Positions 1 to 60,562 of a DNA stretch of 64,000 nt are shown piece by piece. Numbering within the stretch: the first letter of the stretch is position 1; each line of letters starts with the position of its first letter. The notes below the pieces were generated by a model. The model saw nothing but the letters and a program-made list of their open reading frames with translations. It did no database searches and had not been told where the DNA came from. The position numbers were made by a program, and so were the translations under genes. The DNA is from Aquilaria yunnanensis (lineage: Eukaryota > Streptophyta > Magnoliopsida > Malvales > Thymelaeaceae): assembly GCA_039654915.1 (NCBI GenBank), contig CM077594.1, positions 93,076,893 through 93,140,892 on the forward strand. Direction: 5' to 3'.

Positions 1-89
1 AGTAATCTAATAGTAAAAATCTCCTAGATTTAGTCCAAAATCAAGGGTGTAGTCTTTGTTAGATGGACACCTGGTATTCTTTTTCTGGT

Positions 90-410
90 ACAACAAAAAG
101 ATGTAATGCGTGCATTCTACTACTTTCCATTTTTACACTCTTTGCCATTATACTATCTATTATTGCCATCACACTTTACTTTTTGGCAACTGGTAATTCT
201 TTTTGTTCTCTAACAAAAAGATGTTACGTGTACATTATACCACTTTTTAATTCCATTATTACATCTACACATTGTACTAATTTTTACCAAAAATTCAATT
301 ATTACAGCTACACATTCTACCACTTCTTACCAAAAATTCCGTTTTTTTTATATATCCATCTTTCACTCCTTTCCATTATACTATCCATTATTGCTATCAC
401 ACTTTACTTT
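90..410 (+). repeat. Degenerate short tandem repeat
   Basis: Short phrases recur with drift: a version of 'acaaaaagatgt' at about 92 and 214, and a near-identical 35-base block at about 147-181 and 371-405. The open frame across it (63-434) is hydrophobic only because the DNA is T-rich, and I do not regard it as a gene. The block probably belongs to the repeat-rich 3' region of the LTR retrotransposon that ends at 8586. Confidence 0.5.
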
Positions 411-434
411 GAAAACGATATTACTCGTGGGTGA

Positions 435-1240
435 AAATAAAAAGTTAAGGGAGATTTAATAGTGGCGATCTTGAAAGTGCTGTCAAATCTAGTAAGAAGG
501 ATTTCATATGTTGCACCCCAACTCTCAAAAAAAGAATTCATAGTGGTTATCAACATCCTTGCAAGAAGTCTGGGGTTAGCTTCCAAACAAGGTAGCTCTC
601 ATATTAAATGACTTCAGTGGCCTCCCAATTCTCACAAATGCTCAATACAAAAAAAGGTTCTCAGTCTTCCGCAACACAAACTCTGAAAAGAAAAAGTTCA
701 TCCCTTCCATCAAAAAGCCATTAAAGGAAAAATCCAAAAAAAAATCTAAAAAAAAACAGAGAGACTGAGAAGCAAATAAAGCCACTTGAGTCATCTCACT
801 TCAAGAAGGCTATGATCTCGGTTCTCCATAACACAAACTCCAAAAAAAAAAGGGAAAAAGTTCATCCCTTCCATCAAAAAGCCAACAAGGGAAAATTCAA
901 AACCAAAAAGAACTGAGAATAAGCACGAGCAAGCAAGGCCACTTGAGTCATCTCACTTCAAGAGAGTTATCAAGTATGTCATCACCATAGCTCATACAAA
1001 AAAAAAAATAAATTTTTCTAAAAAAAAAAAAACAAAAAAAGAAAAAAGAAAAAAAAAGAAAACAAAAAGTGAGCTATGGATTCTAGACTGAAAACCTGCA
1101 AAGGCGGTTTAGAACACAAAAGCAACTTTCAAGCCAAGCATACATAAAGACCACGATAGTTAGGGGGCAACAGATGAGGTTTAACTTTCTGGAAAGAGTG
1201 GCAAGTTTGAGGTCATCACTATTGAGTTTTTCATCATAAT
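435..1240 (+). repeat. Repeat-rich spacer, about 170-bp period, with A-rich tract
   Basis: A block reading 'aagttcatcccttccatc' followed by AAAAAGCCA occurs at about 695 and 860. A second phrase, 'ccacttgagtcatctcac', occurs at about 782 and 942. This gives about two copies of a unit near 165-170 bp. An A-rich, nearly homopurine stretch follows at about 1000-1070. No gene is visible. Confidence 0.55.
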
Positions 1241-1242
1241 CA

Positions 1243-1690
1243 AATTTGCTCACGAGTAGTATTAAAAGACCCTTCTTTCAAACCACTTTCCTCAGACTTA
1301 TCATCCTCATTCAGCTAAAAGACTATCATTGTGAAACATGTTTCTACCTTATTTAATACTGCTCACGAGTAGTATTAAAAGACCATTCTTTCACACCACT
1401 TAAATTTAACTTTCCTCAGACCTAACATCCTCATTCAGTTAAAAGACTATCATTGTGAATCATGTTTCTACCTTATTTAATACTGCTCACGAGTAGTATT
1501 AAAATACTCTTCTTTCACACCACTCAAACTTAACTTTACTTAGACCTAATATTTACCTCTTAATATTATTTTCATTCAGCTAAAAGACTGCCACAAAAAA
1601 TAAAAAACATTCAAACTTAACTTTCCTCACACCTAACATTTACCTCTCGATATCATCCTCATTCAGTTAAAAGGCTATTATTGTGAATCA
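1243..1690 (+). repeat. Tandem repeat, about 112-122 bp period
   Basis: The phrase 'gctcacgagtagtattaaaa' recurs at about 1250, 1362 and 1484. Between these the phrases 'ctaaaagactatcattgtga' and 'atgtttctaccttatttaat' repeat in the same order. Two more decayed partial units follow up to about 1690. This fits the variable repeats found in the 3' region of Tat/Ogre elements. Confidence 0.7.
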
Positions 1691-2660
1691 TGTTTATACC
1701 TTATTGCCTTGCACAGTTTATGTCTTCGAGTTGGAAAGGGAAGAGTGGCAGGATATTTTAATTAAAAACAAAGACCGTAAATTACTTTGTCAAGCTTTGC
1801 AAATTGATGAAAGTTTTTCTTTAAGGCCAAACCATTATTCATTAATGTGTGTAGATTTAAAAGTGAGGAGATAGCTTGAGACTTTCTTTAAGAAGATGTG
1901 GTTCTTGTAAGAGAAATTCATGATCAAGGACCATCACAAAGGTCTAGAAATGCTCAACCTTCTGTTAAATCAAAGATGAGATGATACCTTTTATCCACAT
2001 AAACACCATATTCAAGGGGGCAAAGTAGTCTCTACTAAGCGTAAGAAGAGTACTGCCAAGAAAGAAGTTCAATAGACAAGGGGGCAAGTCTTATGGATCA
2101 GAACCTGAGTCTAAGGAAGAGCAATCATTCGGACTGTAACATGGGGGTAAACAAGTGTCGACACGGCCACAAGAAAAGGGACAATGAAACATTGAAAGTT
2201 AAGCCTTTGATAGTATGAAATCCATGACAAGGGATGAGTATTTGAAGAGATATAAAGTATGAGGCGAGCGAACATTAAAGAAATTGAGGCCAAAATTCAA
2301 GAACAAGTCAAAGAAAGCGGACTTTGAAAAGAGTTGGGCTTTTGAGGCAGCGAACAAAAGCTGGAAAGCATAAAGAGATTCAATGATAGTCCAAGAAGGC
2401 AATCATAAAGAAGATCCAGTAAAGCAAAGACATGAAGAACTAGATCCATAAAAAAAAAAACATCAATTCCACATGCTCTGCATTCATGCATTTCACATCA
2501 TGCATGCATGGCTTTTGCATAATAGGAACCAAATGGGAAGCACATCCACGGCACAGTTTCAGCAGTATAAGCTGAGATCTCAATGTCATCAGCTCTTACC
2601 AATCTATCACTGGATACACAGCTAATATGCGGGACCAACCCGCATCAGGAATTCAAGGAT
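1691..2660. other. Unassigned retroelement spacer
   Basis: No recognisable protein domain. A 63-codon open frame at 1683-1874 looks more protein-like than its neighbours, but I cannot match it to a family. The stretch includes purine-rich, stop-laden sequence on both strands. It probably belongs to the same retrotransposon 3' region as the flanking repeats. Confidence 0.4.
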
Positions 2661-3130
2661 AAAGTAGACAATATTGTCAAAAGCTTGGCTACCGATTCAA
2701 TAATCGAGGCTACAGCTAGTAGTATCCAAGATAAGAGATAGCTATAGCCAAGGATAAGGCAGATATCAAAAAAAATATAAAGTAGACAATATTGTCAAAA
2801 GCTTGGCTACCGATTCAATAATCGAGGCTACAGCTAGTAGTATCCAAGATAAGAGATAGCTATAGCCAAGGATAAGGCAGATATCAAAAAAAATATAAAG
2901 TAGACAATATTGTCAAAAGCCTGGCAATTGATTCATAATCGAGGCTACACCTGGAAGGACAGGATTGATGCCAGCTTAGCAGCATCCAAGATAAGAGATA
3001 GCTGTGGTCAAAGATAAGGTAGACATCAAGAAATATTGTCGTTGAAACTTTGTCAAAAGCGGACAATGGATTCAATAATCGAGGACTGGATCAACGTCAG
3101 CTCGATGGAATATCCAAGATAAAAAATATC
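2661..3130 (+). repeat. 118-bp tandem repeats rich in GATAAG
   Basis: Units start at 2661, 2779 and 2897, an exact 118-bp spacing. The first two are nearly identical; the third and a fourth partial unit (to about 3130) are diverged and carry small insertions. Each full unit holds two GATAAG motifs ('aagataagag' and 'aggataaggc'), the core of plant I-box light-response elements. The array ends about 140 bp before the start codon of the viral-like gene at 3270, so it could act as its upstream region. That role is inference. Confidence 0.75.
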
Positions 3131-3269
3131 TATCACATCAAAATGAAGTAGGATCTACTTTTCCGGTTAAGCGGCGGATACGGTACTCCGTGACTCTCAA
3201 GTCGGTTCTCTCAGTTGCCCATAATAACTAATTCTTTCCTCTCTTTTTTCTTTTACTTCCCTCTAGAAA

Positions 3270-3818
3270 ATGGATCCTACTCTTTCTGTCTTACGAAAAT
3301 ATTTTCCTTCTTTCCCAATGAACATTCTCAAAAAGATCTACCAAGTTCGCTGTGAACGATTAAGAGTTCTGATGCACAAAGGAATCCCTGAAGATGTGCG
3401 GTGGTTAATCGAAGCCAAGGTTCGTCTGGCAGGTGAAATCCCAGAGGCATTTGTGTCTCACATGCCTGGTATAGGCAGAAGCTCTTATGCCAAAAAGCAA
3501 AGAGCGAAAAGGTTACGAGTCTGCCACAAATGTGGACGGTGGACTTGTAATACTAAATGTCATTCTTTAGGAATGATCTCCGATAATCGAGAAGATAAAA
3601 TACGATTCATCAAGAATGGCCTGAGTAAGGACTCATTGGATGATATCCGATTGACTCTTGAGACACATTCTTGTGGATCTGTGCAACGTGAACTTCTTGG
3701 TTTATGGAGCATTTTTCATGAAGAACGAAACCGTTACAGTCCCGGGAATCTGACTGTAAATGACCCTGTTTGCCAGCTTGTAAGAAAACTGGATGGGAAG
3801 CAAATCCTCGACTCATAG
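3270..3818 (+). CDS. Virus-like cysteine-rich nucleic-acid-binding protein, copy 1 (intact)
   Basis: A 182-codon ORF without interruptions. A basic run (residues 75-83) leads into a zinc-binding-like cluster C-x2-C-x4-C-x3-C at residues 85, 88, 93 and 97; the preceding residues read GRSSYAKKQRAKR and a later motif reads EDKIRFIKNGL. The order Gly-Arg-Ser, basic box, Cys cluster and RF(I/V)K resembles the small nucleic-acid-binding proteins of carlaviruses and vitiviruses (Betaflexiviridae), several of which suppress RNA silencing. The N-terminal 65 residues and the C-terminal 60 are extra to that core. The ATG was chosen because both other copies start at the same place. It is the first of three tandem copies ahead of a LOG-like pseudogene, upstream of a retrotransposon LTR. 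The viral link rests on motif recognition only; a plant or retroelement zinc-finger protein with a similar core is the alternative. Confidence 0.6.
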   Translation: MDPTLSVLRKYFPSFPMNILKKIYQVRCERLRVLMHKGIPEDVRWLIEAKVRLAGEIPEAFVSHMPGIGRSSYAKKQRAKRLRVCHKCGRWTCNTKCHSLGMISDNREDKIRFIKNGLSKDSLDDIRLTLETHSCGSVQRELLGLWSIFHEERNRYSPGNLTVNDPVCQLVRKLDGKQILDS

Positions 3819-3849
3819 AAGCCATTAATGCCGTTACTAGACGTAAAGC

Positions 3850-3995
3850 CAGTGGAAGATGTGAGTCACAGTCACAATTACTGTACATACAGTTTGTTAT
3901 ATTTGGAAAAGTTTGCATTTTCTTTTGACAGATGTACATGCTCCCCTAAGTGTAATCGACACGTTATCCATTTTCATCACTATAAATGCGTGTTC
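3850..3995 (+). promoter_or_regulatory. Putative promoter of copy 2
   Basis: A TATA box (tataaat) at 3981-3987 lies about 120 bp before the ATG of copy 2. It is preceded by a block beginning 'gagtcacagtcacaattact' and containing 'gacagatgtacatgc'. The same order of blocks occurs before copy 3 and, multiplied, before the LOG-like gene, so it looks like a promoter duplicated with the genes. Confidence 0.5.
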
Positions 3996-4107
3996 TTCCT
4001 TTTGATTAAGCAGCGGATAAGATACCCCGTGACTTCTAAATTCGGTTATTCCAGTCTCTTACAATAACTGATTCATTTCCCTCTTCTCTCAAATTCTTCT
4101 CTCATCA

Positions 4108-4656
4108 ATGGATTCTACTCTTTCTGCACTGCGAAAATACTTTCCTTCCCTTCCAATAAAAGTTCTTAAAAAGATCTACCTTGCTAGATGTGAAAGAATC
4201 AGAGTTTTTACATGCAAAGGCATTCCCGATAATGTGTAGTGGATAATTGAAGCTAAGGTCCGTTTGGCGGGTGAAGTTCCAGATACATTTATGCCCCGCA
4301 TGCCCGGTTTAGGTAAAAGCCGTTATGCCAAAAGGCGAAGAGCAAAGAGACTAGGCGTGTGTTATAAATGTGGGCAATGGAATTGTAATACTAAATGTCG
4401 CTCTTTAGGATACATCTCCACAAATCGTGAAGATAAAAGAAAATTCATTAAGAATGGCCTGCGTAAGGAATCTCTGGAAGATATCCGAGAGACTCTTGAA
4501 ACGCATTCTTGTGGAAAAGTGCAAGGTCAAATTGTCAAATTGTGGAGGACTTACCATAAAGAACGAAACCGTTACAGTCTTGGGAATGTGACTTTAAACG
4601 ACCCTGTTTGTCAGTTTGTAAGGAAACTGGATGGGAAGCAAATCCCCGACTTATAG
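4108..4656 (+). pseudogene. Virus-like cysteine-rich protein, copy 2 (one nonsense codon)
   Basis: Collinear with copy 1 over the same 549 nt with no indels. The single disabling change I see is TAG at 4237-4239 (codon 44), where copies 1 and 3 read CGG. Downstream the frame stays open to 4656 and keeps the basic box (AKRRRAKR), the C-x2-C-x4-C-x3-C cluster and the RED-x4-FIKNGL motif. The basic box is closer to the viral pattern here than in copy 1. A shorter product starting at an internal Met (4264 reading frame) would still contain the whole basic and zinc-like core, so the locus may not be functionally dead. Confidence 0.6.
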
Positions 4657-4689
4657 AAGGCATTGAAGCCATTACTGGACATAAATCAG

Positions 4690-4815
4690 TGGAAGATGAG
4701 AGCCACAGTCATGATTGCTGTACATATAAGCTGTCATTTGTCTTTTCTTTTGACAATAATGTACTTGCTTCTGTAAGCGTAATTAACGCATTATCCCTTT
4801 CATCACTATAAATAT
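4690..4815 (+). promoter_or_regulatory. Putative promoter of copy 3
   Basis: TATA box (tataaat) at 4807-4813 in the context 'ttcatcactataaatatgtg', nearly the same as before copy 2 and about 60 bp before the copy 3 ATG. Upstream are the related blocks 'agccacagtcatgattgctg' and 'gacaataatgtacttgc'. Confidence 0.5.
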
Positions 4816-4872
4816 GTGTTAGTTATTTTCGTTTCCTACAATCACTAATTTCTTTCTTTGCCTCCTTCATCA

Positions 4873-5420
4873 ATGGAGTCTTCTCTTTCCGCCCTACGAA
4901 AGTATTTTCCTTCCTTCCCAATAAATGTTCTTAAAAAGATTTATCAAGCTAGATGTGAACGATTCCGAGTATTTATGCACAAAGGCATTCCTGATAATGT
5001 GCGGTGGCTAATTGAAGCTAAGGTTCGTTCAGCTGGTGAAGTTCCAGAAGCGTTCTTTCCCCGTATGCCCGGCTTTGGTAAAAGCGCTTATGCCAAATAA
5101 GAAGAGCAAAGAGGCTAGGCGTTTGTCATAATTGTGGATGGTGGATTTGCGGCAATAAATGTCGTTCTCCATGAGTGATCACCAGAAATCGTAATGATAG
5201 AATAAGATTCATTAAGAATGGCTTGTGTAAGGAATCTCTAGAATATATTCGAGATGTTCTTGAAGCGCATTCTTGCGGAATAGTGCAATTTGAGGTTGTT
5301 GGATTATGGATAATTTTCCAAAAAGAACGAGATCGTTACAGTCTTGGGAATCTGACCCTAAACGACCCTGTTTGTCAGTTTGTGAGAAAGCTAGATGAGA
5401 TGCAAATCACCGATTCATAG
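4873..5420 (+). pseudogene. Virus-like cysteine-rich protein, copy 3 (frameshift and stop)
   Basis: Starts at ATG 4873 and follows copies 1 and 2 up to the basic box. There the phase is lost by one base near 5097 (548 nt in total against 549 in the other copies). The second frame carries the four cysteines and then meets TGA at 5172-5174, after which it remains open to 5420. Copy 3 is therefore a pseudogene with two lesions. Its segment 5180-5340 is the closest match in the window to the isolated fragment at 60402-60562. Confidence 0.65.
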
Positions 5421-5464
5421 AAAGCATTGAAGCCATTACTGGACGCAAAGCCAGTGGAAGACGA

Positions 5465-5935
5465 GGATCAAAGTCACGATTACTGTACGTGCTAGCTGTC
5501 GCTTTTGAAATTTTCCTCCCCTTTTGGTAATAATGTATCCACTCCTGACGTGAACCAAAGTCACGATTACTGTACGTGCTAGCTGCCGCTTTTGAAATTT
5601 TCCTCCCCTTTCGGCGATAATGTATCCACTCCTGACATGAGCCATAGTCACGATACTGTACATGCTAGCTGTCGCTTTTGAAATTTTCCTCCTCCTTTGG
5701 CAATAATGTACCCACTCCTGACACGGACTACTGTATATAGCTGCCACTTTTGAAATTTTCCTTCACTTCCGACAATCACATACCTACTCCTGACATAAGC
5801 TACAATCGCGACTACTGTATATTTTAGTTGCTTTTGAAAATTTCCTCCTCTTTTGATGGTAATGTACCCACTCCCGACCTAAGCCATAGTCGTGACTACT
5901 GTGTATAGCTGACAATAATGTATCCACTCTTGAGA
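5465..5935 (+). repeat. About six 87-bp copies of the upstream promoter block
   Basis: The block around 'agtcacgattactgtacgtg', followed by 'cttttgaaattttcctcc' and 'aataatgta..ccactcctgac', starts near 5471, 5558 and 5645 (87-bp spacing). More diverged copies lie near 5720, 5805 and 5885. A single version of this block occurs before copies 2 and 3 of the virus-like gene. Several copies contain TGACGT- or TGACAT-like cores similar to plant as-1/bZIP sites. The array lies directly upstream of the LOG-like TATA box. Confidence 0.7.
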
Positions 5936-5954
5936 ATAAAATTATTACTTTATC

Positions 5955-5975
5955 TTTTCATCTCTATAAATATAT
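5955..5975 (+). promoter_or_regulatory. TATA box of the LOG-like gene
   Basis: 'tcatctctataaatatatcc', with TATA at 5965-5972, lies about 45 bp before the ATG at 6013. It closely resembles the TATA context of copies 2 and 3 of the virus-like gene. Confidence 0.55.
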
Positions 5976-6012
5976 CCTCTTTTCTTCTTTTCTCACATGG
6001 GTAAGGATAGGA

Positions 6013-6643
6013 ATGGAGAAAACCCCAACTCGTAAATCCCGAAGTATTTGTGTATTTTCTGGGGCTTTTCCTGGAAAAGATGAAGAGTATTTAAAGGCAG
6101 CCAACCATTTGGGTAGAGTATTAGCTGAGCGAAAAATACATTTAGTTTATGGATGAGGTAGTGTCGGATTAATGGGAGGTGTAGCATCAGCAGCATCTTT
6201 AGGAGGAAGTCAAGTTTTGGGCATCATCCCTGGACCTTTGAAATTTGTTTCTGGGGGGCACGATTGGAGAAGAATTAGTGGTTAAAAATTTGCAAGAGCG
6301 TGTGTTACAAATGCTTTTAAATGCTGATGCTTTTATCGCTCTACCAGGTGGTTTTGGCACATTGGGAGAAGTCTTTCAAATTGCTTCCATGGCCCAACTT
6401 AATTTGCATAAGAAACCCATTGGGCTTTTAAATGTTAACAATTTCTTTACAGGTCTGATAGCTTTTATGGATTATGCTATGCAGAAGAATTTCATATCAA
6501 GAGTGTCACGACGAATCATAATATCCGCAACAACTGCTGAAGAATTGCTAGATAAAATACAAGCTTTTGTTCCTGAACCAGATCCAGCAATGATTCAGAT
6601 AGACTGGACACGACAGTCTTTCCCGACCAGTTCACTCCCATAA
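6013..6643 (+). pseudogene. Intronless LOG-like cytokinin riboside 5'-monophosphate phosphoribohydrolase, broken
   Basis: LOG enzymes release active cytokinin bases from their nucleotides. The translation shows the family layout: an N-terminal ICVFSGAFPGK segment, a VYG-x-GSVGLMGG turn, the catalytic Arg in a LQERVLQM segment, the diagnostic LPGGFGTLGE motif, and KPIGLLNV near the end; the length (about 209 codons) is normal. Two lesions are visible: TGA at 6154-6156 inside the glycine-rich loop, and one extra G in the run at 6253-6258 that shifts the frame. Plant LOG genes usually have several introns; this copy has none, suggesting a retrocopy or capture through RNA. It lies about 0.6 kb after the third virus-like copy with a similar promoter. 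The family call is firm; the origin is inferred. Confidence 0.8.
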
Positions 6644-7184
6644 TGGTCCTCTTCTCACCCTATTAAAGTTTTGTGGAAGAAAGAAGCGATCTGATCCGTT
6701 TTTCTTGTCCTTTAGTTTTATTATCAGCATTTTCTTTCGCGTTTCAGTTTTTCTTTTCAGGGAATTTCTTTTTTTATAAAATAGTTTCGTTCATGCTGAT
6801 ATTAAAACCACAGGATAACGCCTTTAGGTTGGAATGGCTGAGTAAAGAGTAATTTTTATTGCTCTTGAGACGCATCCTATTAGGTCTACTAAGCATGACA
6901 TTTTGGGGTAGTTAAGCTTCAACCTTATTTGGATGACATATCTCACAAGGGAATCTATATTTACTGAAAAAAATATTAGATGAACCTTGGATATTGATTC
7001 CAAACATCCGTTCCCTTTACATAATTTGTTAGTGTTATTGTCATCATCAAGATTCACTCATCTCATCGAAGTCTAAATTTCTGCACTCACCTATTATGAA
7101 AATTCACACTTCCGAATAGAACATTTCAACTTCGATTGTCTGAGGTACTTAAAAAAGAGGAAAGAGTTTTTCTCCACAATCAAT
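6644..7184. other. Spacer without recognisable gene
   Basis: T-rich sequence after the LOG-like stop codon may be its former 3' untranslated region. No domain, convincing repeat or RNA gene is visible. Confidence 0.4.
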
Positions 7185-8485
7185 TTCAATTTCGACGAGG
7201 TTCTAAGGACGGAACCTTTGCCTCGTAATCAATCAATTTCAATTTCAACGAGGTTCTAAGGACGGAACCTTTGCCTCGTAATCAATTAATTTCAATTTCA
7301 ACGAGGTTCTAAGGACGGAACCTTTGGCTCGTAATCAATCAGTCCATCTTGCAACGATAGGAGGGTTCCTATCGTCGAGGTTCTAAGGTAGGGCCCTTAA
7401 CCTCAAACTTGCAACGATAGGAGGGTTCCTATCATCGAGGTTTTAAAGTAGGGCCCTTAACCTCAAACTTGCAACGATAGGAGAGTTCCTATCGTCGAGG
7501 TTCTAAGGTAGGGCCCTTAACCTCAAACTTGCAACGATAGGAGGGTTCCTATCGTCGAGGTTCTAAGGTAGGGCCCTTAACCTCAAACTTGCAATGATAG
7601 GAGAGTTCCTATCGTCAAGGTTCTAAGGAGAGTTCTTTAAACCTCAAACAATCAATCATCAATTTTTCTTAAACGATAAGAGAGTTCTTATCGCAGAGGT
7701 TCTAAGGTAGAGCCCTTAACCTCAAACTTTCAACGATAGAAGAGTTCCTATCGTCGAGGTTCTAAGGAGAGTTCCTTAAACCTCAAACAATCAATCATCA
7801 ATTTTTCTTAAACGATAAGAGAGTTCTTATCGCAGAGGTTCTAAGGTAGAGCCCTTAACCTCAAACTTTCAACGATAGAAGAGTTCCTATCGTCGAGGTT
7901 CTAAGGAGAGTTCCTTAAACCTCAAACAATCAATCATCAATTTTTCTTTAAACGATAAGAGAGTTCTTATCGCAGAGGATCTAAGGTAGGGCCCTTAACC
8001 TCAACCTTTCAACGATAGAAGAGTTCCTATCGTCGAGGTTCTAAGGAGAGTTCCTTAAACCTCAAATAATCAATCATCAATTTTTCTTAAACGATAAGAG
8101 AGTTCTTATCGTAGAGGTTCTAAGGTAGGGCCCTTAACCTCAAACTTGCAACGATAGGAGAGTTCCTATCATTGAGGTTCTAAGGAGAGTTCCTTAAACC
8201 TCAAACAATCAATCATCAATTTTTCTTCAAACGATAAGAGAGTTCTTATCGCAGAGGTTCTAAGGTAGGGCCCTTAACCTCAAACTTGCAACGATAGGAG
8301 AGTTCCTATCGTCGAGGTTCTAAGGAGAGTTCCTTAACCTCAAACAATCAATCAACCAGTCCATCTTACAACGATAGGAGCTTTCCTATCGTAGAGGTTC
8401 TAAGGACCTTTCCTTAACCTCAAACTTGCAACGATAGGAGAGTTCCTATCGTCGAGGTTCTAAGAAAAGTTTCTTAACCTCAGGA
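7185..8485 (+). repeat. Tandem array of alternating hairpins (60-bp units and about 139-bp higher-order units)
   Basis: Units of exactly 60 bp repeat from about 7330; from about 7620 they alternate with 79-bp versions to form higher-order units. Each unit holds two inverted repeats. Hairpin A is ACGATAGGA..TCCTATCGT with a 4-base loop, counted 17 times. Hairpin B is built from GAGGTT-x2-AAGG..CCTT-AACCTC. Some variants change both arms together (GATAAGA with TCTTATC). Repeat arrays just before the 3' LTR are a known feature of Tat/Ogre elements, and this array ends about 80 bp before the polypurine tract. Confidence 0.85.
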
Positions 8486-8567
8486 TTTAGGCGGCGAGAA
8501 AGTTTTCAATGCCTAGCTAAGTCTGACGAAATTTGGTAACGACTTTGCTTGCATCATGTCTCATGAA

Positions 8568-8586
8568 GCATGCAAAGGGGGGCAGC
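8568..8586 (+). other. Polypurine tract of an LTR retrotransposon
   Basis: 'gcatgcaaaggggggcagc' directly precedes an LTR that opens with TGTTGACACCC. This is the plus-strand priming site that marks the end of the internal region, so the retrotransposon runs left to right and its coding part would lie before position 1. Confidence 0.8.
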
Positions 8587-11500
8587 TGTTGACACCCAAT
8601 TTCGTCCGACCATAAAAAAATTTTTAAAAGAAATTAAATAAAAAAATTATTATTTTTATTATTATTATTATTACTAAAAATTTTAATTAGTTTAAAATAC
8701 ATTTTTTTTGTGAAGATTTGATTTAAAATGATATATGTGTGTATTTGAAAGAAAAAAAGAAAACTCCAAAAAAATGGCAAAATTTAAAAGTTTGAGGTAA
8801 AAATGACAACATTAAGAAGTTTCGGGAAAAATTGACAAATTCTGAAAGTTCCAAGAGCATTTGGTAGTTTGTCACATAAAATTTTGGGCCTGCCGACGTT
8901 TCTGGCCCAAATTGACAGAAAACGACAAAATTGTCAAAATCAGAAGCTTCAGGAATTTATCCAGAGGCTGAGAGACGTAAAGGACTAAAATTATCATTTT
9001 ACCAATTTAAAAGATAAGTTTGAAATTTTTTATTAATTTATCCATCAACAGTTCAGCCAAACTTCCTCTATAAATAGCCCCCCAAATTTTGTGTTGAACA
9101 CAGAAAAAAATAGAGAGAAAGCTTAAAGCTCCGTTTAAAAAAAAGGAAAAAATTAGCCTAGGTCCCTGGCCCTCTTCTCTTCCTCTCCAGAAAATCTAAA
9201 CCTTCTCTGACTGTTTTTTTTTTTTCTCGCGCGCGTCCGCGTTTCCTGGAGAATTAGAAATTTTAGTTCCTGGGTAAAATTCAGCTTTCGCCCTTCATCT
9301 TTCCAATTTATTTCTATTGAGTCACTAACCTTTTATTTTATTCTTGCAGAGAATTAATTACTAACTTTCCTCTTATATTTTACTTGTTTATTATTATTAT
9401 CATTATTAACTTTTATTACTGTTGTTATTAACTTACTAATTTACTAACTTTACTAACTTTTATTATTATTGTTGTTATTATTAACAATTAACTCAACTAA
9501 CATTACTAACTTTTATTTTTATTGTTATTGACAACTAACTTTAATAACTTTGTTAACTTTTATTATTGTTATTATTAATTTTAACCATTAACTTTACTAA
9601 CTTTTGATAATTTTTATCATTGTTGTTAACAACTAATTTTTTTATTTTATTATTATAATTATTGTGGATGGCCAAAAAAGCCCCACTTTATTATTAATTG
9701 TCTCTTTTAGGTGTTTAAATTTAGTTATTATTAAAAAAAAAAAAGAATTTTATGTGAATAATTATTAAGGCTAATAAAAATCATTTTTAAAAGCCAATTA
9801 TCTTTTGTTATTTTGGAATAAATGTTTTTTTTATTATTTCTTTAAAGATAACAAAGTTAACTTTTTATTCCTTTTGTTAAAAATTAATAAACAAACATAA
9901 TTAAATAATTCTAAAAATATACAAATCAATTATTTTTAAACATATTTTTTAAAATAATGATATTTAAAATTTAAAAAAAATTCAAGAAAAATAACAATAA
10001 AAATTGTGATTAAAATTAATAAATAATTAAATGATTAAAATAAAATTTAATAAACAAAATTTAAACTCCATGTCCAAATGATCCGTTAGGATCCAATGGC
10101 TTGGATAATAAAAATTTTTTTAAAAAAATATAAAATATAAAATTAATTTTAATAGTTATTTTAATTCAGTAAAAATAATAAAAAAACAAAAAAAAAACAA
10201 AAATATGTTTAATAAAAGAAATACATGAAAATTAAGACTTTGTATTTAACTTATTTCTTTAAAATATAACTTTGGATTCTTTTATTGAACAAATAAAACT
10301 TTAGCCAAATGATTTCAAATAAAGGTAATAAAAATAAATAAATAAAAAAAACATATTAAATTTCTCTTAAATATTTTAAATTTATTAATTAAATGTATTT
10401 TTACACTTATAAATAGGAAAATCTTTTATCAAACAAAAAGAACATAAAAATGAAATATGTAAATATCAAAAACTTTTCTTTTATTTTTTAAATATACATA
10501 TAAATTTTTTAGTATCTTAATTAAATAATCACTTTTTAGTTAATCTTTCATCAAAATAAATTATATAAATATTATGACTTTACTTTTATATTTTTAAAAT
10601 ATACATATAAATTTTTAGTTTCCTTATTAAATAATCATTTTTTGCTTAATTTTTTTATCAAAAATAAAACAAATAAATATTAAGACTCTTCTTTTATTTT
10701 TGAAATATACATATGAATTTTTGGTTTCATCATTAAATAAATAAAGTTTTGATTACTTTTTGATTCACCTTTTATCAAATACAATATTAAGACTTTACTT
10801 TATTTTTAAAATATTAAATCTTTAGTTTTCTTCATTAAATAAAACCTTGATTAAATAATTTCTTTTTTTGGTTTATCTTTTATCAAATAAAAAGAATAAA
10901 TATATAGATTTTTCAATATACATATAAATCCTTAGTTTTCTTGATTAATTTCATTTTTGTTATTCTTTTATCAAATAAATAGAATAAATATAAAATAAAA
11001 TATTTTTTTTAACTCTTTAATTTCTTTATAAAAAAAAATTAACCAATTAAAAATTAATTATTTTTCTTTTATAAATCAAGTAATTATTTAAGAAAAATAG
11101 ATAATAAATTTTTTTTCATTAAATAAGAAAACTAAAAGAAAGAAAAGAAAAGAAAAGAAAATATAAAATATAAAAAAATAAAATTTTTAGATTATTAATA
11201 AATCTAAAAATTTCATAAACAAAAAGAATTACGAATTAGTAATTAAACTAATAATTAATAAAAATAAGAATTAAATAATTAACTATAAATTAAATTAACT
11301 TCCATATCTGGATGATCCGTCAGGATCTACGGTTTGGAAAATATCAACTTTTTTTTTTTACTAAATAAATTAAATAAATATAAAGATAAAAATCCATATT
11401 CACAATATGGATAAAATTGTTTAAAATTTCACCAAATTCCGTGTCCAAATGACTCGGCAGAGTCCATGGTTCGGAATCAAATCTTCCGTGTCCAAATGAC

Positions 11501-11759
11501 TCGGCAGAGTCCATGGTTCGGAAGTATAAAATTCTATACAAATTAATTACCAAAAATCCACATCCGATTAATTCAGTTAAAAATTCTAGATTGAAAATTA
11601 ACTGAAATTTATTTAAAAGCAAAGTGAAACAAAATTAAAATCAACTAAGGTACCAATTTTTGGGCGTTTTAACAAAGTTGTTTTAACGTAACCGTACTCC
11701 CGAACCCCCGAACTCTCGCAGACCATATTTTAGGTAACCAATCGACCTAAACATAAACA
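8587..11759 (+). mobile_element. Long LTR of a Tat/Ogre-type Ty3/gypsy retrotransposon
   Basis: Begins TGTTGACACCC after the polypurine tract and ends ..TAAACA just before a primer-binding-like site, giving about 3.17 kb; Ogre LTRs are typically this long. A TATA box (tataaatag) lies at 9069-9077. The middle (about 9,600-11,300) is extremely AT-rich with no ORF. A block close to 'ccaaatgactcggcagagtc' is repeated at about 11447 and 11491, with diverged copies near 10075 and 11305. The left end is clear; the right end is inferred from the CA and the adjacent primer site. Confidence 0.75.
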
Positions 11760-11760
11760 G

Positions 11761-11799: not shown

Positions 11800-12960
11800 A
11801 ATAAGGAAGAAGAATTGATCACTTTTCTCAAAGAATTGTGATGCCTTAGCTTGGTTTGCTAAAGATATGCCAAGAATTAACCCAAATACCATAACTCGTA
11901 AGCTTAACACCATGCCAAAAAGGCACTTGGTCCAACAAAAGAAGAGAAACCTCAGGTGAAAAAGGAAAGCAGCTACTAAGGCGAAGGTAGAAAAGCTCTT
12001 AGCTGTAGGTTTTCTTAAGGAAGTCAAGTATCCAGATTGAGTCTGTAAGGTTGTAATGGTTCCAAATACCATCTTTGGGTGGCGAATATGTAATGACATC
12101 ATAGATCTTAATGAAGTATGCCCTAAAAATTGCTACCCTTTGCCTCAAATTGATGTCATGGTTGATGCCTTGGTATCTCATGAAATGTTTAGCTTCATGG
12201 ATACCTTCAGTGGCTATAACTAAATCCGCATGCATCTATATGATAAAATTCACACTGCCTTCATAACAGACCAAGGCATATTTTGCTTTACTAGAATGCC
12301 ATTTGGCCTTAAAAACGTTGAAGCCACCTACTAGAGAATTACGAACAAAATCTTCAAAGAACAAATTGGTAGAAATGTCAAGGTTTATTTAGATGATATG
12401 CTCGTTAAAAAGAAAATAGAGACAAGACCATATTCCCAATTTCAGGGAAACATTAAATTTCTTGCGAAAATACAATATGAAACTTAATCTAGCCAAATGT
12501 GCCTTTGGAGTTGGTTCAGGAAAATTTTTAGGCTACATGGTCACCTATCGGGGCATTAAGGCTAACCCGGAAAAAGTAAAGGCAGTTCTCGGCATGACTC
12601 CACCCAAAGACATAAAAGGTATACAAATATTGGCAGAGCGAATCATAGCCCTTGGAAGATTCTTAGCAGGGTCAGCTAGAAAATGTCTTCCATGTTTCCA
12701 AGCACTAAAGAATAAGGGGAATTCATATCCCTTATAGGATAAAGAATGTCAAAAAGCCTTCGACCAAATTAAGGGCGAATCGAGTAACTTGCCAATCCTT
12801 AAAAGTTTAAGGGAAGGCGAACCTCTCATTTATTACTTATCAGTTATTCAAGAAACAAGTGTCGCGGCCCTCATCAAGGAAGAACAAGGAATGTAAAGCC
12901 CAAATTATTTTGTTAATTGAGTTTTTCAAGGGGTTAGAGCCTGGATTTACTAAAGTGGAG
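11800..12960 (+). pseudogene. Decayed Tat/Ogre pol: reverse transcriptase and start of RNase H
   Basis: In pieces of frame, translation shows the pre-RT segment (FAKDMPRINP), the lead-in VEKLLAVGFLKEV, the RT core with FSFMDTFSGYN, FITDQGIF, MPFGLKN and the catalytic box VYLDDMLVK. ANPEKVKAV and MTPPKDIK follow in the connection region, then a start of RNase H (GEPLIYYLSV). Many stop codons make it non-functional. The MTPPK and GRFLAGSARKCLP phrases are typical of the Tat clade. gag, protease and most of the leader are missing: the RT begins about 100 bp after the primer site. Confidence 0.85.
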
Positions 12961-32299: not shown

Positions 32300-33033
32300 T
32301 CTTAAAAAAAAACTTGGCACAGCCTAGGCCTAGCACAACCTAGGCCTAGTCTGCTTTTTCTTGAGATGTGCCCAGGTCTCCTAAACCCACCTTTACCCGA
32401 GATGTGCCTAGGCCTCTTAAACTCAAGCCCAGACTCGGCTGGGTCGGCCATTTGCCTACCTCTAGGCAAGATGTTGTTGACGTTGATGCTGATATAGGTG
32501 CGGCGGCTACTAATGTGGTTGGAGTACAGTGACTTTGATTTCGTAAGGCTAACATCACCGATTTCTCTCCTTTTTTATTGTCAGATTTGTTTCTTATTCA
32601 AACTTCAGATTTGTTTCTTATTTAGACTTCAGATTGTTAGATGTAAAAGTTAGGGGCAAAGTTTTTGTGAAAGGAGGCTAGAAAGGCAAACTGAGTATTT
32701 TTCTCTTTTCTGTTAAAGGGTAAGTGTGGGTTAATTTAGGTTTTTTAACAAATGTTAATGGTGTAAGGGATAAGTGTAGGGATTTTAATTTTTTTAGGGG
32801 GTTAGGGTAGGTTTTTGAAACAGTAAAGATACAAGTGTAGGTTACACCAAACCTCAGAGAGGTCTTGATAATTTTCCCTTCTAATATGGACAAATAAATA
32901 AAAAAATCATACTAACATTAACATATAATTACATATGTACAAAAAAACAAACTCATTTGTACAAATAATGTCAAATACATTATTATTCACATGTAAAAGT
33001 TTATTAATGTACATATCTACAACACATCTCCAA

Positions 33034-33099
<66 letters not shown>

Positions 33100-35500
33100 G
33101 TAACATGTTTTATATATATTTATCACTAGCTTTATATATTAAGTTTCATACATATATACCATCTGATTTGTACATATCTCATATTTCGGCGAAAAGTAGG
33201 ATTTAACACGTTTATGTTTGTGTTTTTACTATTGAATATATCAGTGACATACTTGTAAACTTATTTATACATATGTCACACATTATTTGTACAGATCTCT
33301 CATTTCCTTTATACATTAAGCTTGTATATATCTGATATCTAACTTGTACATATCTCCAATTTAAGGAGAATATGATCTTTGATGTATTTATACTTGTTTT
33401 ATACTATGAAAGGGTATATTAGAATACAAATATATATAAATATATATATACATAAGAGGTAGGGCATAGGTTACTTACTTTGCCTTCTCGGCATGTCACC
33501 GCTTACAAGATTATGGTGCTAATCTGATTTTTACTTTTTATATAGTATCCTAACTCTCTTAAAATATTTGTCATTTTTTTTAAATCTTACTCCACGTATT
33601 TTCAATTATGCATATTATTTTAAAAATATATCATTCTCATTATTTAGAATTTATGAATGCTTGTTCATTGTAATTATAAACTGATTCTTACTAACTGACA
33701 AAGGGTCAAAGAGTAATATTTCCTGCCTCCCATAAAGAATTGTATGTTTCTCAAAGAGCTAAAATTAAGATATACATAGTTTATGATATCTTTTCAAGTT
33801 TTCCCCTAAGACTAATTTTTGTTTTAAAAAAATGGATTTTATATAGTGAGAGTTTACCCCTAAAATTAAAATTTTTTAAAAAAAAATGAAGTTTGTGTAG
33901 AGAAAGTTTAAATGATGATTTAAACTTGACACAACCTAGGCCTAACCTACCTTTACTCAAGATGTGCCTAGGCCTCCTAAACTCACCTTTACCCCAGATG
34001 TGCCCAGGCCTCCTAAACTTAGGCCCAAACCTGGCTAGGTCGGCCAACCACCCACCTCTAGGTGAGATGTTGTTGATGTTGATGCTAATATAGGTGCAGC
34101 GGCTACTAATGTGGTAAGAGCACAGTGACTCCAATTTCACGAGGCTAACTCACCGATTTCTCTCTGTCTCTGACCCCGATTTCTCTCATTCTTTATTGGC
34201 AAATTTGTTTCTTATTCAGATTTCATTTTTGTTTTTATTTAGACTTCGAATTGTTAAATGCAAAAGTTAGGGGCAACGATTTTGTTAGGGGCAACGATTT
34301 TGTGAAAGGAAGCTAGAAAGGCAAAATGAGTATATTTCTCTTTTCTATGAAGGGGTAAGTGTAGGTTAATTTCGGTGTTTTAACGGATGTTAACGATGTA
34401 GTGAATAAGTGTAGGGATTTTAAATTTTTTAAGGGGGTTAGGGTAGGTTTTTGAAACGATAATGGCAAAGTGTAGGCTTCACCAAACATTAGGGGGTTTT
34501 GATAATTTTTCCTTATAATATAGACAAATAAATAAAGAAATCTTACTAACATTAACATATAATTACATATGTATAAAAAAATAAATTCATTTGTACAAGT
34601 AATGTCAAATGCATTATTATTCACATGTAAAAGTTTATTAATTTATATATCTACAACATATCTCTAACTCATTTGTATATATATGTAACATATTTTGTGT
34701 ATATCTATCACTAGCTTTATACATTGAGTTTCATGCATATATATTATCCGATTTGTACATATCCCATATTTTAGCAAAAGCAGGATTTGACACGTTCATG
34801 TTTGTGTTTTTACTATTGAATATATTGGTGACATATCTATGGACTCATTTATACACATGTCACATATTATTTGTATAGATTTCTCATTTCCTTTATACAT
34901 TGAGTTTGTACATATCTGATATCTAACTTATACATATCTCCAATTTGCGGAAGATATGAGAGTTGATGTATTTACACTTATTTACACCATGAAAGGGTAG
35001 TATTAGAATGCAAATATATATAAATATGTATAGACATAAGGGCTAGGGTGTAGATTTGACTTACTTTGCCTTTGCAGCATGTCACTGCTTACAAGATTAT
35101 GATGCCAATCTAATTTTTATTTTTTATATAGTATCCTAACTCTTTTGAAATATTTGTCATTTTTTTTAAATCTTACTCACGTATTTTTCAATTATGCATA
35201 TTCTTTTAAAAATATATCATTCTCATTATTTAGAATTTATGAATGCTTGTTCATTGTAATTATAAACTGATCCTTACTAACTAACAAAGAGTCAAAGAGT
35301 AATATTTCCTCTCTCTCATAAAGAATTATATGTTTCTCAGGGTGCTGAAATTAAGATATACATAGTTTATGATATCTTTTCAAGTTTGCCTCTAAGACTA
35401 AAATTTTTTAAAAAATTGGATTTTATGTAGTGAGAATTTGGCCCTAAAACTAAAATTAAAACAAAATTGGAGTTTAAATGATGATTTAAAAAATCATTCT
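32300..35500. repeat. Tandem segmental duplication, unit about 1.6 kb
   Basis: The order of blocks at about 32,300-33,900 repeats at about 33,905-35,500. The blocks are a TAGGCCTAGG-rich GC patch, 'gttgatgctgatatagg', the MULE-like terminal piece, 'cattaacatataattacata', 'catgtaaaagtttattaat' and 'acatagtttatgatatctttt'. Corresponding points are offset by about 1.58-1.63 kb. Unit 1 contains the (TA)n expansion that unit 2 largely lacks. Confidence 0.85.
33038..33092. repeat. (TA)n microsatellite
   Basis: About 27 uninterrupted TA units. The corresponding place in the second duplication unit (about 34,676) has only a few. Confidence 0.98.
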
Positions 35501-45992: not shown

Positions 45993-47412
45993 TGTTGCAA
46001 AACTAAGAGTTTATCAATTTGTAACCCTTAATTACCCACAAGCACATGGAGTTGTAGTGTACTTTAATGTGAGTAGGGGTATCGTCCCAAGGGAATTTGG
46101 TGTTTTTACCAAGATTCGAAATTCAACTTACTCAAGTTACTTAATTGGAAATGAGAGAGAAGTAAAACTAGAGAAGGTAATTGCTCCTAATGAGGTACTT
46201 GAAAGAGTTAAACTAAATGAATTCCCAATGTGCTAAATGAAACTTGTCAAATGAGCTAGAAATAAGAAAACTATCTCCCTAGGACTCCACTCCTACCCCT
46301 TGTTACCCAAGTAACTTTAACCTCAAGATTGGTTTTCCTTGTGTGGTAATGAGGATCTATCTTCAAAAACTCCTTTCTCAAATTGAGTCCTTGCTCACCC
46401 TCAATTAACTTAGGCTTTACCCAAGCTCCAATTTTAACCTAGGGTGGGTTAAGGTTCAAACATCTTTTTATTACCTAATGACCACCTAGATTACCTCTAA
46501 TCTAGATTGCCACTATGCCCCCTCCACTTCTCTCCACTCACCTATTAATCCTCTCTCAAAGATTTAGTGAACTGGAACTTTATGTATGGTGGCCTACCAT
46601 CACTCAACATTAAGCACAAGAAGAAGGGCAACACAAGATGAATCTCATCCATAATCACAAACACGAATTCATTGAGTAGCAAGATAGGAAATGTCATCCT
46701 AAAGAGATAAATCAAACTACTCACAATCCATAATATGTATCAACAACAAACCTATAACAAATATATCCACAAAAATCCAACAAATAAAAAGAGGGAAAAG
46801 AAGAAACCCAAGAAAACCCTTAAAAGACTAAGCTCCCAGGGGTGATGACCCCATTCTTCCAGCTCCCAAACACTTCCTTGATGGTGAATAACCTCTAAAA
46901 GTGATGAGAGAAGAAATATGCCAAGGTGGATGATGTGGGCTCTTCCTTTCTCCTTCTATTTATACTCCCCCTGTTTTCTGCCTCCTTCCCTCTTCCTAAA
47001 ACCCTAAAGGGATAAGAATCCCTCTACAAAACCAGCTCACCAAGTGGGAAAAAGTGGGGGACCATAAAAAATGTAAGATTTCGGCAAAACAGAGTGAACG
47101 TTGGCGACGCATCGCCAACTGGGTTCGAATAAAAGTGTTCACAGAACGTTGCTAACTTTGGCGACGCGTCGCCAACTGACGCGATTTCTGGCGACGCGTC
47201 GCCGACTTTGATTTTCTGCTTCGATCACTTCTTTCATCCAAACGCCATCCTGCTCGAGTCTGCTTCTAATGCCATGTCCGTAACACAGTCCCAACTTGTA
47301 GTAAGCCAAAGAAAACAGGAAAAAACTAAGACAAAAAGAAATAGTTACAAGAAATTGTCGGTCAAAGTTGTCGAAAAGTCAACACTTTGACCGTGGATTT
47401 ATGCACTTAACA
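45993..47412 (-). mobile_element. Athila 3' LTR
   Basis: On the plus strand it reads TGTTGC..TTAACA. The TATA box on the minus strand is at about 46957-46966 (plus 'ctatttatac'). Palindromes of the GGCGACGCGTCGCC type lie upstream of it at about 47,101-47,205. It is 1420 bp, shorter than its partner mainly because one palindrome segment is missing near 47,112. Confidence 0.93.
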
Positions 47413-47432
47413 AATTCCCCAAAACTTAAACC
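47413..47432 (-). other. Athila polypurine tract
   Basis: The minus strand next to the 3' LTR reads AAGTTTTGGGGAATT, the usual purine-rich priming site. Confidence 0.6.
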
Positions 47433-49481
47433 TAAGCTAGTCCCTAGCGACCTACCCTATAAAACCAACCACACAAAACCAAGAAACTACAATGTTAACC
47501 AATTGTTACACCTAAACTTCAATGATTCGCTAGTTTAACTTCAAAAGAAGAAATGGTGGCTAAGGAAAAAGTAGTTTTGCTACTTAAGGTGGATCCCTTA
47601 AGGGTATGACCCTTAACACTTAATTCAATTTCTGCTAGAGGAGTTGTGCTATTTAACTTGGAGCTTGCACTACGTTCTTTTCCATAGGCTTGCAAGAAGA
47701 TCCAACATCCTCTACCATATTCATCTACGGTAAGTTGTACAAAAATCAAAGCTCAGTTGGTTTTTTGAAAGGTCGCAACGGGTTTGGGCAAAGAAAAGAG
47801 GAGGAACCGGATGATAGCTTTCGAAATGAAGTTAGTAAAGTGATCAAGACAAAATCAAGAGCTTAAAAGAAACGAACAAAATTGAACAAGAATCAATCCA
47901 CCGTTCACCACCCCATTACACCTCTTAACTAACTACTATTTCCTCTTCATGTATTTCGCCGTTTAGCAAGTATATAAACGGGAGCTCCGCCTATACCCAA
48001 GCTACTAACTTAATACAATCCAAGGTGATTTTATTTTCTTTTATTATTATTATTATTATTATTTTAAGTCATACTCATGTCTCAAGCATCTTTTTCGAGC
48101 TGTGATCAACTCTTGCCTTAGGAGAAAACTTCAACCTACTTCGATATTGTGAAACAGCGGAGTAGTATACTCTTCTCTTGTTTTTTTTTTTATCACACCC
48201 TCAAACTTGCCATTATTTCCCACTTTATTCAACTCAATGCAATTTCTTTTAAGCCTAAGATTTTACATTTTCCACCTCAGGTAAACTCAAGGGTATATCA
48301 AAGGGAAAATGAACACTCAGAATAAGGCTGAGTACATAAAAAAAAATAATAATCAATTAAGCACAAAAGAGCCCACTAAGAGAAAGCGTGGTAGGATTGA
48401 CTATTTGGTGGAAAGGTTCCTCCTATGAAACCAAACGAGCTTCGAGTTCATACAACTACTGTAAGTTTGCCGGGTCCTCAGGCAAGTTCTAGATCAAAAC
48501 TCAGTACAATAGTCTCAAAAGAGAACAAGTTCATAGCACAACTCCCAAGCTCACTATATCACAACATCAAGATTCCACCAAAAGTATCAAAGCTAATTTT
48601 CCAAATTCATCAAAACTTCAAGAAAGTAAAACTAGTAACCACATCCATCCATATGCAACAATGGTTTCCATTGGGTCCTAAAAACACACAAAAAAATTGA
48701 CCTACATGCTCCTGTATGCAACCTATTGATATTAAATAAAAGAAAGAAAAAAAAAAAGCAAAAACAAAAAAAAAACAACAAAACATGCAAGAAACATGCA
48801 CCCTAAATGAAACAACCATAATTACCCTAAAACTTAGAAACACAACTTAGTCTAAAAACAAAGACAAAAACACAAACAAAGAATATTAAGTATGATAGTT
48901 AAACAACAGCTCCCCCAAACTTAAACATAGCATTGTCCTTAATGGAAAGTGTTTGTTCAAGAATCATACTTGGGGGCGGGTGTTCCCGCCCCTACTACTC
49001 CTCACCTATGTCGTCTTGGCCGGAGGAGCCACCGGCAGGAGAGAAGGAAGAAGGACCTTCAGATGGGACACGGGAAGAGCCAAAGTGTGGGTAAAATGGG
49101 GGTGAATGGCTTGAGGGGTGCGGCATGTACCACTGGTATGCCGAGGGGTGGAAGTGTGGTGGTATGGGTTAAAAATGAGGGTATTCTTGTAAGAGGTTCT
49201 GCTGCTGCTGCTGCTGCTGGTGGCCCCAGCGGACTTGGCCAGAAAGAGACTTCTGGTTGCCGGCAATGAGTGAGATGCCCTCGCGCATTTCTTTAGCAAA
49301 AGAAGAGAAGGTGCCTCCGACTGATTTGAACCGGGCTACTGACTCTTCATGCTGCTCTCTCCTCAACATGTACATCTTGTTGAGTGCTACGGCCAGTGAG
49401 GCCGGGGTAGCGGTAGCTGGGTCAATTAGCTACTCAAACACCCCCTAACTCATCACCTCCCTGAAACTGCTCCTGATCTTC
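47433..49481 (-). other. Athila 3' non-coding region
   Basis: Between the third ORF and the polypurine tract. Near 49,199-49,219 there is a CTG run (CAG on the element's strand). A decayed frame at about 49,170-49,375 (HEESVARFKSVGGTFSSFAK) looks like a former C-terminal extension of the third ORF. Confidence 0.5.
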
Positions 49482-50393: not shown

Positions 50394-50398
50394 GTTTC

Positions 50399-51550: not shown

Positions 51551-51928
51551 AATTCATCCTTATGCTTTCAAAAATCTTGCAAATTAACCCCTAACTTTTT
51601 ATACTGACTCTCATACCCTTTGGAAATTCAATACATTGTACCTCCTTAAGTTGAGAAAGTGTTGTCCATTCTCCTCACTTTCCTTCTAATGGCTCTTCCA
51701 ACCCGGCAAAAACACAGCAAACTGAAAAATAAATAGAAAATCACAAAGGAAAACACAACCTAACTCATGAAAATGAAAAGAAAAAGGCAATGGAAATCGG
51801 GTTGCCTCCTGACTAGCGCTTGGTTTTACGCCTATAGCTAGGCGCCTTTACAAGGTCTCTCAATGGTCGGGTTCGGCCAAAATGGCTTGGCTAATGTGTC
51901 TAAGTTCATCACCATAATAAGCCTTGAC

Positions 51929-52735: not shown

Positions 52736-52797
52736 AAATCAAACACTTCCACCTCAAGAATGTTTTGCAATGGCATTTCATCTCTCCTAGAAATGTT

Positions 52798-54739: not shown

Positions 54740-54775
54740 CTTGAGTTCTTCCTTGAAATTGCAAGATAAAAGTTG

Positions 54776-55572: not shown

Positions 55573-55779
55573 AAATTGAGTATCCTCCTTCTTGGGCTTG
55601 AACCTTTAGGGGTATGGAAGAGTAGGAATATGCTTGGGTGCTTTCTCTTGTGTGGGTATAGCCTTGTCCTTTGAGCTAGCTTCCTCACTTGTAGGTGATG
55701 ACACTTGAACATCTCTAATATTCTCCAATGGGGTGGGCCCTTGGTGAGGATATTCTTCTTGAATAGGTGGCTCCTTAGT

Positions 55780-57379: not shown

Positions 57380-57388
57380 AAAAAACTT

Positions 57389-58830: not shown

Positions 58831-58835
58831 ATTAA

Positions 58836-60401: not shown

Positions 60402-60562
60402 CACCAGAAATCGTAATGATAGAATAAGATTCATTAAGAATGGCTTGCGTAAGGAATCTCTAGAAGATATTCGAGAGGTTCTTGAAGCGCATTCTTGCGG
60501 AATAGTGCAATTTGAGGTTGTTGGATTATGGATAATTTTCCAAAAAGAACGAGATCGTTACA
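60402..60562 (+). pseudogene. Isolated 161-bp fragment of the virus-like cysteine-rich gene
   Basis: Gapless match to copy 3 at 5180-5340 with three differences that I can count. At those three codons the fragment reads Arg, Asp and Glu, where copy 3 has Cys, Tyr and Asp; the Arg and Asp also occur in copy 2, so the fragment preserves an older sequence. The frame is open throughout. Flanking DNA on either side shows no further similarity to the cassette. Confidence 0.9.

Follow-up and report, generated by a model that had tools for sequence, protein, structure and literature searches.

A decayed cassette of flexivirus-type nucleic-acid-binding-protein genes and a LOG-like gene in Aquilaria yunnanensis, probably carried by a Ty3/gypsy retrotransposon

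Genes of the LOG type (YgdH domain) have been reported in Ty3/gypsy long terminal repeat (LTR) retrotransposons of Citrus and Populus (PMC9289625, with reference to Steinbauerova et al. 2011). Among the nucleic-acid-binding proteins (NABPs) of flexiviruses, local silencing suppression has been reported for several, nucleic-acid binding and suppression differ between viruses, and chrysanthemum virus B p12 has a transcription-factor role that leads to hyperplasia (PMC3689765, PMC12172455). In a window of 64,000 nucleotides from Aquilaria yunnanensis (assembly GCA_039654915.1, contig CM077594.1, positions 93,076,893 to 93,140,892, forward strand), three homologous genes of the flexivirus NABP kind stand in tandem (3270-5420, plus strand), followed by a LOG-like gene, a polypurine-tract-like sequence and an LTR (Table 1). 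An earlier note on this DNA had described three tandem copies of a cysteine-rich gene and an intronless LOG-like gene in sense orientation between repeat arrays and the polypurine tract and LTR; both descriptions hold, with only the first NABP copy intact and the LOG gene broken. We read the whole as the decayed remains of accessory genes borne by a Ty3/gypsy LTR retrotransposon, that is, cargo with proposed counter-silencing roles, and give this reading a probability of roughly 0.6.

Scanning bacterial and archaeal genome contigs for NABP recovered a 3330-bp contig (DAIEQH010000041.1, hereafter L001) in which an RNase H-integrase open reading frame (ORF; 104-1594) and an intact NABP gene (1799-2347) lie on the same strand, about 200 bases apart. 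In Melia azedarach, a gene model on a 17.5-Mb contig (P0256) fuses the L001 integrase (100% as rounded, 78% covered) to an NABP; integrase and NABP thus adjoin each other in the assembly of a plant, and L001 is Melia-like. Furthermore, a protein search of 5.8 billion sequences gave 157 NABP matches, 120 of which were listed and are counted here, and in four of these (P0098 from Orobanche, P0103 from Gossypium, P0107 and P0109 from Citrus) the NABP runs on into a LOG. Because the same pairing recurs in several other flowering plants, the NABP and LOG cassette looks like accessory cargo kept over long evolutionary time, and the proposal that the two genes recur as a pair carried by a transposon is supported by the integrase in cis in Melia and by the fused models of Citrus, Gossypium and Orobanche. 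LOG relatives number 1904, 120 of them listed; Reevesia pubescens contributes 54 of the listed sequences, whose locus names bear 19 chromosome labels, a spread that, as judged from these names, is the pattern of transposon genes. When the sizes of 30 LOG-bearing and 105 NABP-bearing contigs were compared, four were equal, where 1.1 would be expected by chance on average and a fraction of 0.024 of the controls reached this number. Two of these were longer than 2000 nt, against a mean of 0.08 and a control fraction of 0.002. In two of the four pairs the partners differ in source, and the comparison gives weak support to the pairing. L001 is filed under a Candidatus Nomurabacteria metagenome-assembled genome, a case of contamination of the public record by a plant retrotransposon contig.

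The relationship of the transposon genes to flexivirus NABPs is supported by profiles, motifs and predicted folds. Copy 1 scores 26 bits with the Pfam profile Viral_NABP and 23.6 bits with Carla_C4, and the uninterrupted portion of copy 2 scores 32.9 and 26.7 bits, all above the curated cut-offs (23 and 20.9 bits, respectively); for copy 3, of which two short open stretches were scanned, there was no profile match up to an E-value of 0.1. PF01623 was found in all 120 listed matches, 14 of which are labelled as plant sequences (Populus, Xanthoceras, Orobanche, Gossypium and Citrus), and among the 64 aligned members Viral_NABP was detected in 55 and Carla_C4 in 54. A zinc finger is present in 109 of the 120, with the spacing C-X2-C-X4-C-X3-C in 100, and in 108 of these 109 a basic stretch (at least six Lys/Arg in 16 residues) precedes the finger. 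In Foldseek searches of BFVD with two NABP models, flexivirus proteins made up 16 of the 19 best matches for one and 26 of the 29 best for the other, the remaining three in each case being unnamed. By analogy with the viral relatives, we infer that the transposon NABP may suppress silencing; of the earlier proposal that this gene counters silencing, the kinship with flexivirus NABPs stands, while the activity itself is extrapolated from the viral proteins. Scans of viral contigs for a virus carrying the cassette gave no relative of either the NABP or its leader, and that candidate was rejected; the LOG scan of the same kind yielded 24 contigs at 23–39% identity. A lead to PF01623 in PMC11168688 was likewise dropped, as the number is given there for HAGH_C.

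Among the three copies dN/dS is 0.19–0.32, and against L001 it is 0.21–0.23 (broken codons dropped), by which measure the NABP was under purifying selection before decay. In the tree, the three copies, the proteins P0001 and P0003 and a fragment near 60 kb form one clade (100/95), in which copy 1 stands beside the intact protein P0001 (96% identity over 100% of its length) and copy 3 groups with P0003; the tandem set was thus inherited as distinct genes before decaying here. The fragment (60402-60562), 55 kb from the cassette, is placed with copy 3 and lacks some of the changes of that copy. Its flanks are not homologous to those of the cassette copy, and a MIR166 gene lies about 1.1 kb off.

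Comparison of copy 1 with L001 also defines the extent of the conserved unit. Identity is 86% in the leader (60/70), 75% in the ORF (410/546) and 83% in a block starting at the stop codon (57/69; window 3816-3884, L001 2345-2413), and falls to stretches of 18–51% beyond. Since identity drops outside, the NABP moves as a module of leader, ORF and post-stop tract. The last of these is in frame in one of the 120 listed NABPs, Gossypium P0103, and is possibly a readthrough extension or an RNA element; a codon-position count made by eye was not clearly coding-like. Near-identical TATA-like blocks precede copy 2, copy 3 and the LOG gene, three in 3001-6100 against none in 200 first-order Markov controls, and none was seen upstream of copy 1. 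These blocks suggest internal promoters, as if entire transcription units had been duplicated. We rejected the leader as a structured RNA, since no significant fold was found in the three sequences folded and L001 had no Rfam match up to an E-value of 1. Just before the leader in L001, a pyrimidine-rich stretch ending in CTGCAG (1645-1661) resembles a splice acceptor, and the NABP mRNA of that element might be spliced.

Table 1. Positions of the cassette, its flanking repeats and the retrotransposon features of the window
Feature	Position	Strand	Remarks
Tandem repeat arrays	1285-1549, 2659-2949		left of the NABP cassette
Conserved leader before NABP copy 1, 70 nt	3160..3229	+	-110 to -41 from the ATG
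NABP copy 1	3270..3818	+	intact ORF, 182 aa, TAG stop
Conserved tract after NABP stop, 66 nt	3819..3884	+	kept in all three copies; one-base gap in copy 2
TATA-like block (CATCACTATAAAT) before NABP copy 2	3975..3987	+	
NABP copy 2	4108..4656	+	broken: single in-frame stop, codon 44 (4237-4239)
TATA-like block before NABP copy 3	4801..4813	+	
NABP copy 3	4873..5420	+	broken: one-base deletion and stops
Tandem repeat array	5469..5878	+	between NABP copy 3 and LOG
TATA-like block before LOG	5964..5972	+	
LOG-like gene, intronless	6013..6643	+	stop at 6154-6156, frameshift near 6255
Tandem arrays, units of 53-60 and 139 nt	7177..8482	+	can fold as paired hairpins
Polypurine-tract-like AAAGGGGGGCAGC	8574..8586	+	
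LTR starting TGTTGACACCC	8587..11759	+	end provisional, placed by eye
Decayed reverse transcriptase/RNase H fragment	12056..12806	+	presumably Tat-like
Ty3/gypsy element	45995-58831	-	LTR pair of ~1.44 kb, 93.9% identity; PF20167 (Transposase_32) in the 3' region
Dispersed copy-3-type NABP fragment, 161 bp	60402..60562	+	98% identical to 5180-5340

The element that probably carried the cassette could belong to either of two lineages. The earlier note had placed it in the 3' region of a Tat/Ogre-type element, an assignment favoured by the polypurine tract, the LTR starting in TG, and, to the right, a sequence like a primer-binding site (TGGCGACTC at about 11766, read by eye) and a decayed, presumably Tat-like reverse transcriptase; the label is tentative, and the integrase found elsewhere in cis with the NABP is presumably of the Athila type. 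Because the primer-binding-site-like sequence and the decayed reverse transcriptase lie to its right, the LTR beginning with TGTTGACACCC seems to have internal DNA of an element on either side. A longer Ogre-type primer-binding-site pattern had no match at up to three mismatches and was discarded. By its motifs, the reverse transcriptase is tentatively Tat-like; in tblastn this fragment is 25–43% identical to other Ty3/gypsy pols, the upper value applying to a piece of 37 residues. In the array just before the polypurine tract (7348-8482), one unit of about 60 nt folds into two hairpins (-23.2 kcal/mol, z -3.0). Since no polyprotein was seen in cis to the left, the Tat/Ogre label rests on the LTR and the right flank.

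The comparisons of pol point elsewhere. The L001 polyprotein is 57.6% and 52.4% identical to the minus-strand Ty3/gypsy element at 45995-58831, which by its motifs is presumably of the Athila type, and five L001-related pols are 49–68% identical to that element (51.9-54.4 kb) as against 25–43% to the reverse transcriptase at 12 kb; L001, in addition, has an extra ORF downstream of its integrase, a feature of Athila-type elements. On these comparisons, the integrase in cis with NABP is of another lineage than the Tat-like remnant beside the window LTR. As the pol comparisons split in this way, the module may have been acquired by a Tat-like element, or else the remains of an Athila-type element adjoin a Tat-like LTR; we consider these two readings about equally likely, each falling a little short of an even chance. 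If the cassette came from an Athila-type element, the Tat-like LTR at 8587 would stem from another element, brought next to or into the first by nested insertion or deletion. In favour of this origin, the one type of integrase seen in cis with NABP shares its lineage with the minus-strand element, and similarity to L001 sets in some 70 nt past the L001 pol stop codon, so that no pol is left at the cassette. LOG-bearing elements are, moreover, said to belong to the Athila lineage, Steinbauerova having reportedly named, in a 2011 abstract, Athila-like elements with similarity to LOGL4. However, the polypurine tract, repeat arrays and cassette share one sense, as would be expected of one element whose 3' region is long, and the LTR of the minus-strand element has no copy near the cassette. 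Athila-type polypurine-tract motifs were absent from 1-8600, several occurring on the minus strand at 47.4-51.7 kb, inside the minus-strand element. If instead the module was acquired by a Tat-lineage element itself, possibly with an Athila-type element as donor, and came to lie between its pol and 3' LTR, the position and orientation of the cassette relative to the polypurine tract and LTR would follow, and Retand elements do have long, often repeat-bearing regions between pol and the 3' LTR (PMC11963269), but there is no pol match in the 3.27 kb of window to the left.

The LOG-like gene, although broken in the window, has intact relatives and gave a Lysine_decarbox/LOG profile match of 1.4e-27 over 6245-6640. 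The window piece has the PGGXGTXXE motif with the catalytic Arg99 and Glu122 (numbering of PMC4979012), and Val, Gln and Met at the positions of Lys100, Glu125 and Trp129. Of the 105 listed relatives with PGGxGT, 104 retain Glu122 and 99 retain Arg99, while Lys100 has given way to Ile, Met, Leu, Val or Thr in all 99 scored for it, Glu125 is replaced in 104 of 105 and Trp129 is kept in 75 of 105; in the four natural solved LOGs shown, all three residues are present. Lys100 has been assigned to adenine and prenyl binding, and alanine swaps of binding or catalytic LOG residues, except S19A, nearly abolish activity (PMC4979012). In the tree, 30 sampled relatives fall into one clade (97/98), separate from two Arabidopsis LOGs, the host sample being small and the two bacterial outgroups standing on long branches. 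Most listed relatives (77 of 120) have LxLxL within their last 12 residues, as against none of 1878 internal 12-residue blocks; the tail is mostly degenerate in the Orobanche sequences and lacking from the window copy. LxLxL is the pattern of EAR repression motifs.

Because almost every close relative that could be scored has lost Lys100 and Glu125, the earlier suggestion that the enzyme activates cytokinin is doubtful. A tentative alternative, which we hold to be possible without favouring it, is that the LOG-derived protein no longer activates cytokinin, having kept its catalytic dyad and changed its substrate, perhaps to another nucleotide that may be an immune or metabolic signal, or that its LxLxL tail recruits a corepressor in the manner of an EAR motif. 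A change of substrate is what the retention of Glu122 and Arg99 alongside replaced Lys100 and Glu125 would suggest, and the enrichment of LxLxL at the C-terminus would fit an altered function. Against this, Trp129 is kept in most relatives, and the LxLxL comparison was made with internal blocks rather than with the tails of host LOGs, plant LOGs having a C-terminal motif of their own (PMC11593424).

Several observations weigh against the cassette being cargo of this kind, or against the roles proposed for it. The NABP fold models are weak (pLDDT 65 and 64, pTM 0.34 and 0.31), a deeper alignment gave no better model, and the best viral fold match had an E-value of 0.01, none being lower; the L001 NABP scores 19.8 with Carla_C4, just under the cut-off, yet passes that of Viral_NABP. 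As to suppression, the sources disagree on chrysanthemum virus B p12, one giving no local suppression (PMC3689765) and the other weak suppression (PMC12172455). The pocket changes of the LOG family, as read from the aligned residues, make ordinary cytokinin activation doubtful, and 15 of the 120 listed LOG relatives lack PGGxGT, leaving these residues unscored there. With respect to linkage, no LOG is seen within the 983 bases that follow the L001 NABP, the LOG relatives of Reevesia could not be tied to NABP or pol neighbours, no Reevesia protein is among the listed NABP matches, and none of 77 pol-bearing contigs equals an NABP-bearing contig in size. Within window positions 1-11760, only one of 120 listed L001 pol relatives matches (P0256, through its NABP part), so that no integrase was seen in cis; these queries were not of the Tat lineage, yet they detected the reverse transcriptase at 12 kb.

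That the genes stem from an RNA virus integrated into the genome, or from an old cluster of host genes functionally unconnected with any transposon, the latter having been named as the main alternative, is very improbable, for although betaflexivirus replicase-like sequence occurs in the cucumber genome (PMC3136472), the integrase in cis with NABP in Melia, the repeated pairing with LOG and the many scattered LOG relatives speak against both, and no other viral gene was found beside NABP in the families scanned (a selection of ORFs).

Two further features of the window stand apart from the cassette: a MIR166 precursor (61685-61806, minus strand) that exceeds the Rfam gathering score, and a tandem duplication of about 1.6 kb with 82% identity (32334-35475).

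If the cassette is retrotransposon cargo, its action might be pictured as follows. The NABP, with its basic stretch and zinc finger, would bind nucleic acid and could weaken host silencing of the element's RNA, or regulate transcription as some of its carlavirus relatives do; the LOG-derived enzyme would act on a nucleotide or cytokinin ribotide in NABP-expressing cells, and the two together could favour expression in dividing cells that give rise to germ cells. Internal promoters at the TATA-like blocks may express both genes apart from gag-pol. A broader and, in our estimation, unlikely extension is that plant LTR retrotransposons and flexuous RNA viruses share a pool of silencing suppressors, the NABP of alpha/betaflexiviruses having been taken from or given to a retrotransposon lineage that keeps it as a module and paired with an altered LOG into a kit for counter-defence and growth reprogramming; such a module would comprise its own promoter or leader, the ORF and a post-stop tract possibly read through, with a LOG of altered substrate and EAR-like tail. 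Should the NABP suppress silencing, the element would represent a plant retrotransposon equipped with a suppressor of the plant-RNA-virus type, kept under selection in several eudicot orders, and the origin of the flexivirus NABP gene would become testable. With its naturally altered active site, the LOG-derived protein lends itself to the study of LOG substrate choice, and the spread of transposon LOGs could confuse counts of the plant LOG gene family.

The pair had been thought undescribed in retrotransposons. The LOG gene by itself is known already from Ty3/gypsy elements; for a flexivirus-type NABP in an LTR retrotransposon, or for the pair of NABP and LOG, we found no report in the open PMC literature, subscription papers being mostly outside this search, and as far as searched both are new.

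The systems nearest to this locus each share part of its makeup. The Citrus and Populus elements likewise hold a LOG-type gene in a plant Ty3/gypsy element, and Citrus also has NABP-LOG models, whereas the available description of these elements mentions no NABP, tandem copies, altered LOG pocket or LxLxL tail (PMC9289625). Retand elements resemble the window in their long 3' region, tandem repeats and extra ORFs, but these ORFs (TRP28 and others) are antisense (PMC11963269), while the window genes are in sense. The Phalaenopsis gypsy element with an AlkB-type RNA demethylase is similar in carrying an extra gene that possibly counters host control, though the gene is a different one and was assayed in vitro by its authors (PMC9289625). 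With the LONELY GUY enzymes (AtLOG3, At5g11950 and CgLOG) the window LOG family shares the PGGXGTXXE motif and the catalytic Arg and Glu, and it differs from them in the replaced Lys100 and Glu125 and in the LxLxL with which most of the listed relatives end. Finally, the window NABP is like the flexivirus NABPs, for example those of carlaviruses, in matching Viral_NABP and Carla_C4 above cut-off and in its basic stretch before a central zinc finger; in contrast to them it is retrotransposon-coded, it is longer (182 aa, against 62-157 aa in the named flexivirus fold matches up to rank 26), and the spacing of the transposon zinc finger is mostly C-X2-C-X4-C-X3-C rather than the C-X2-C-X9-C-X4-C of potato virus H (PMC3689765).

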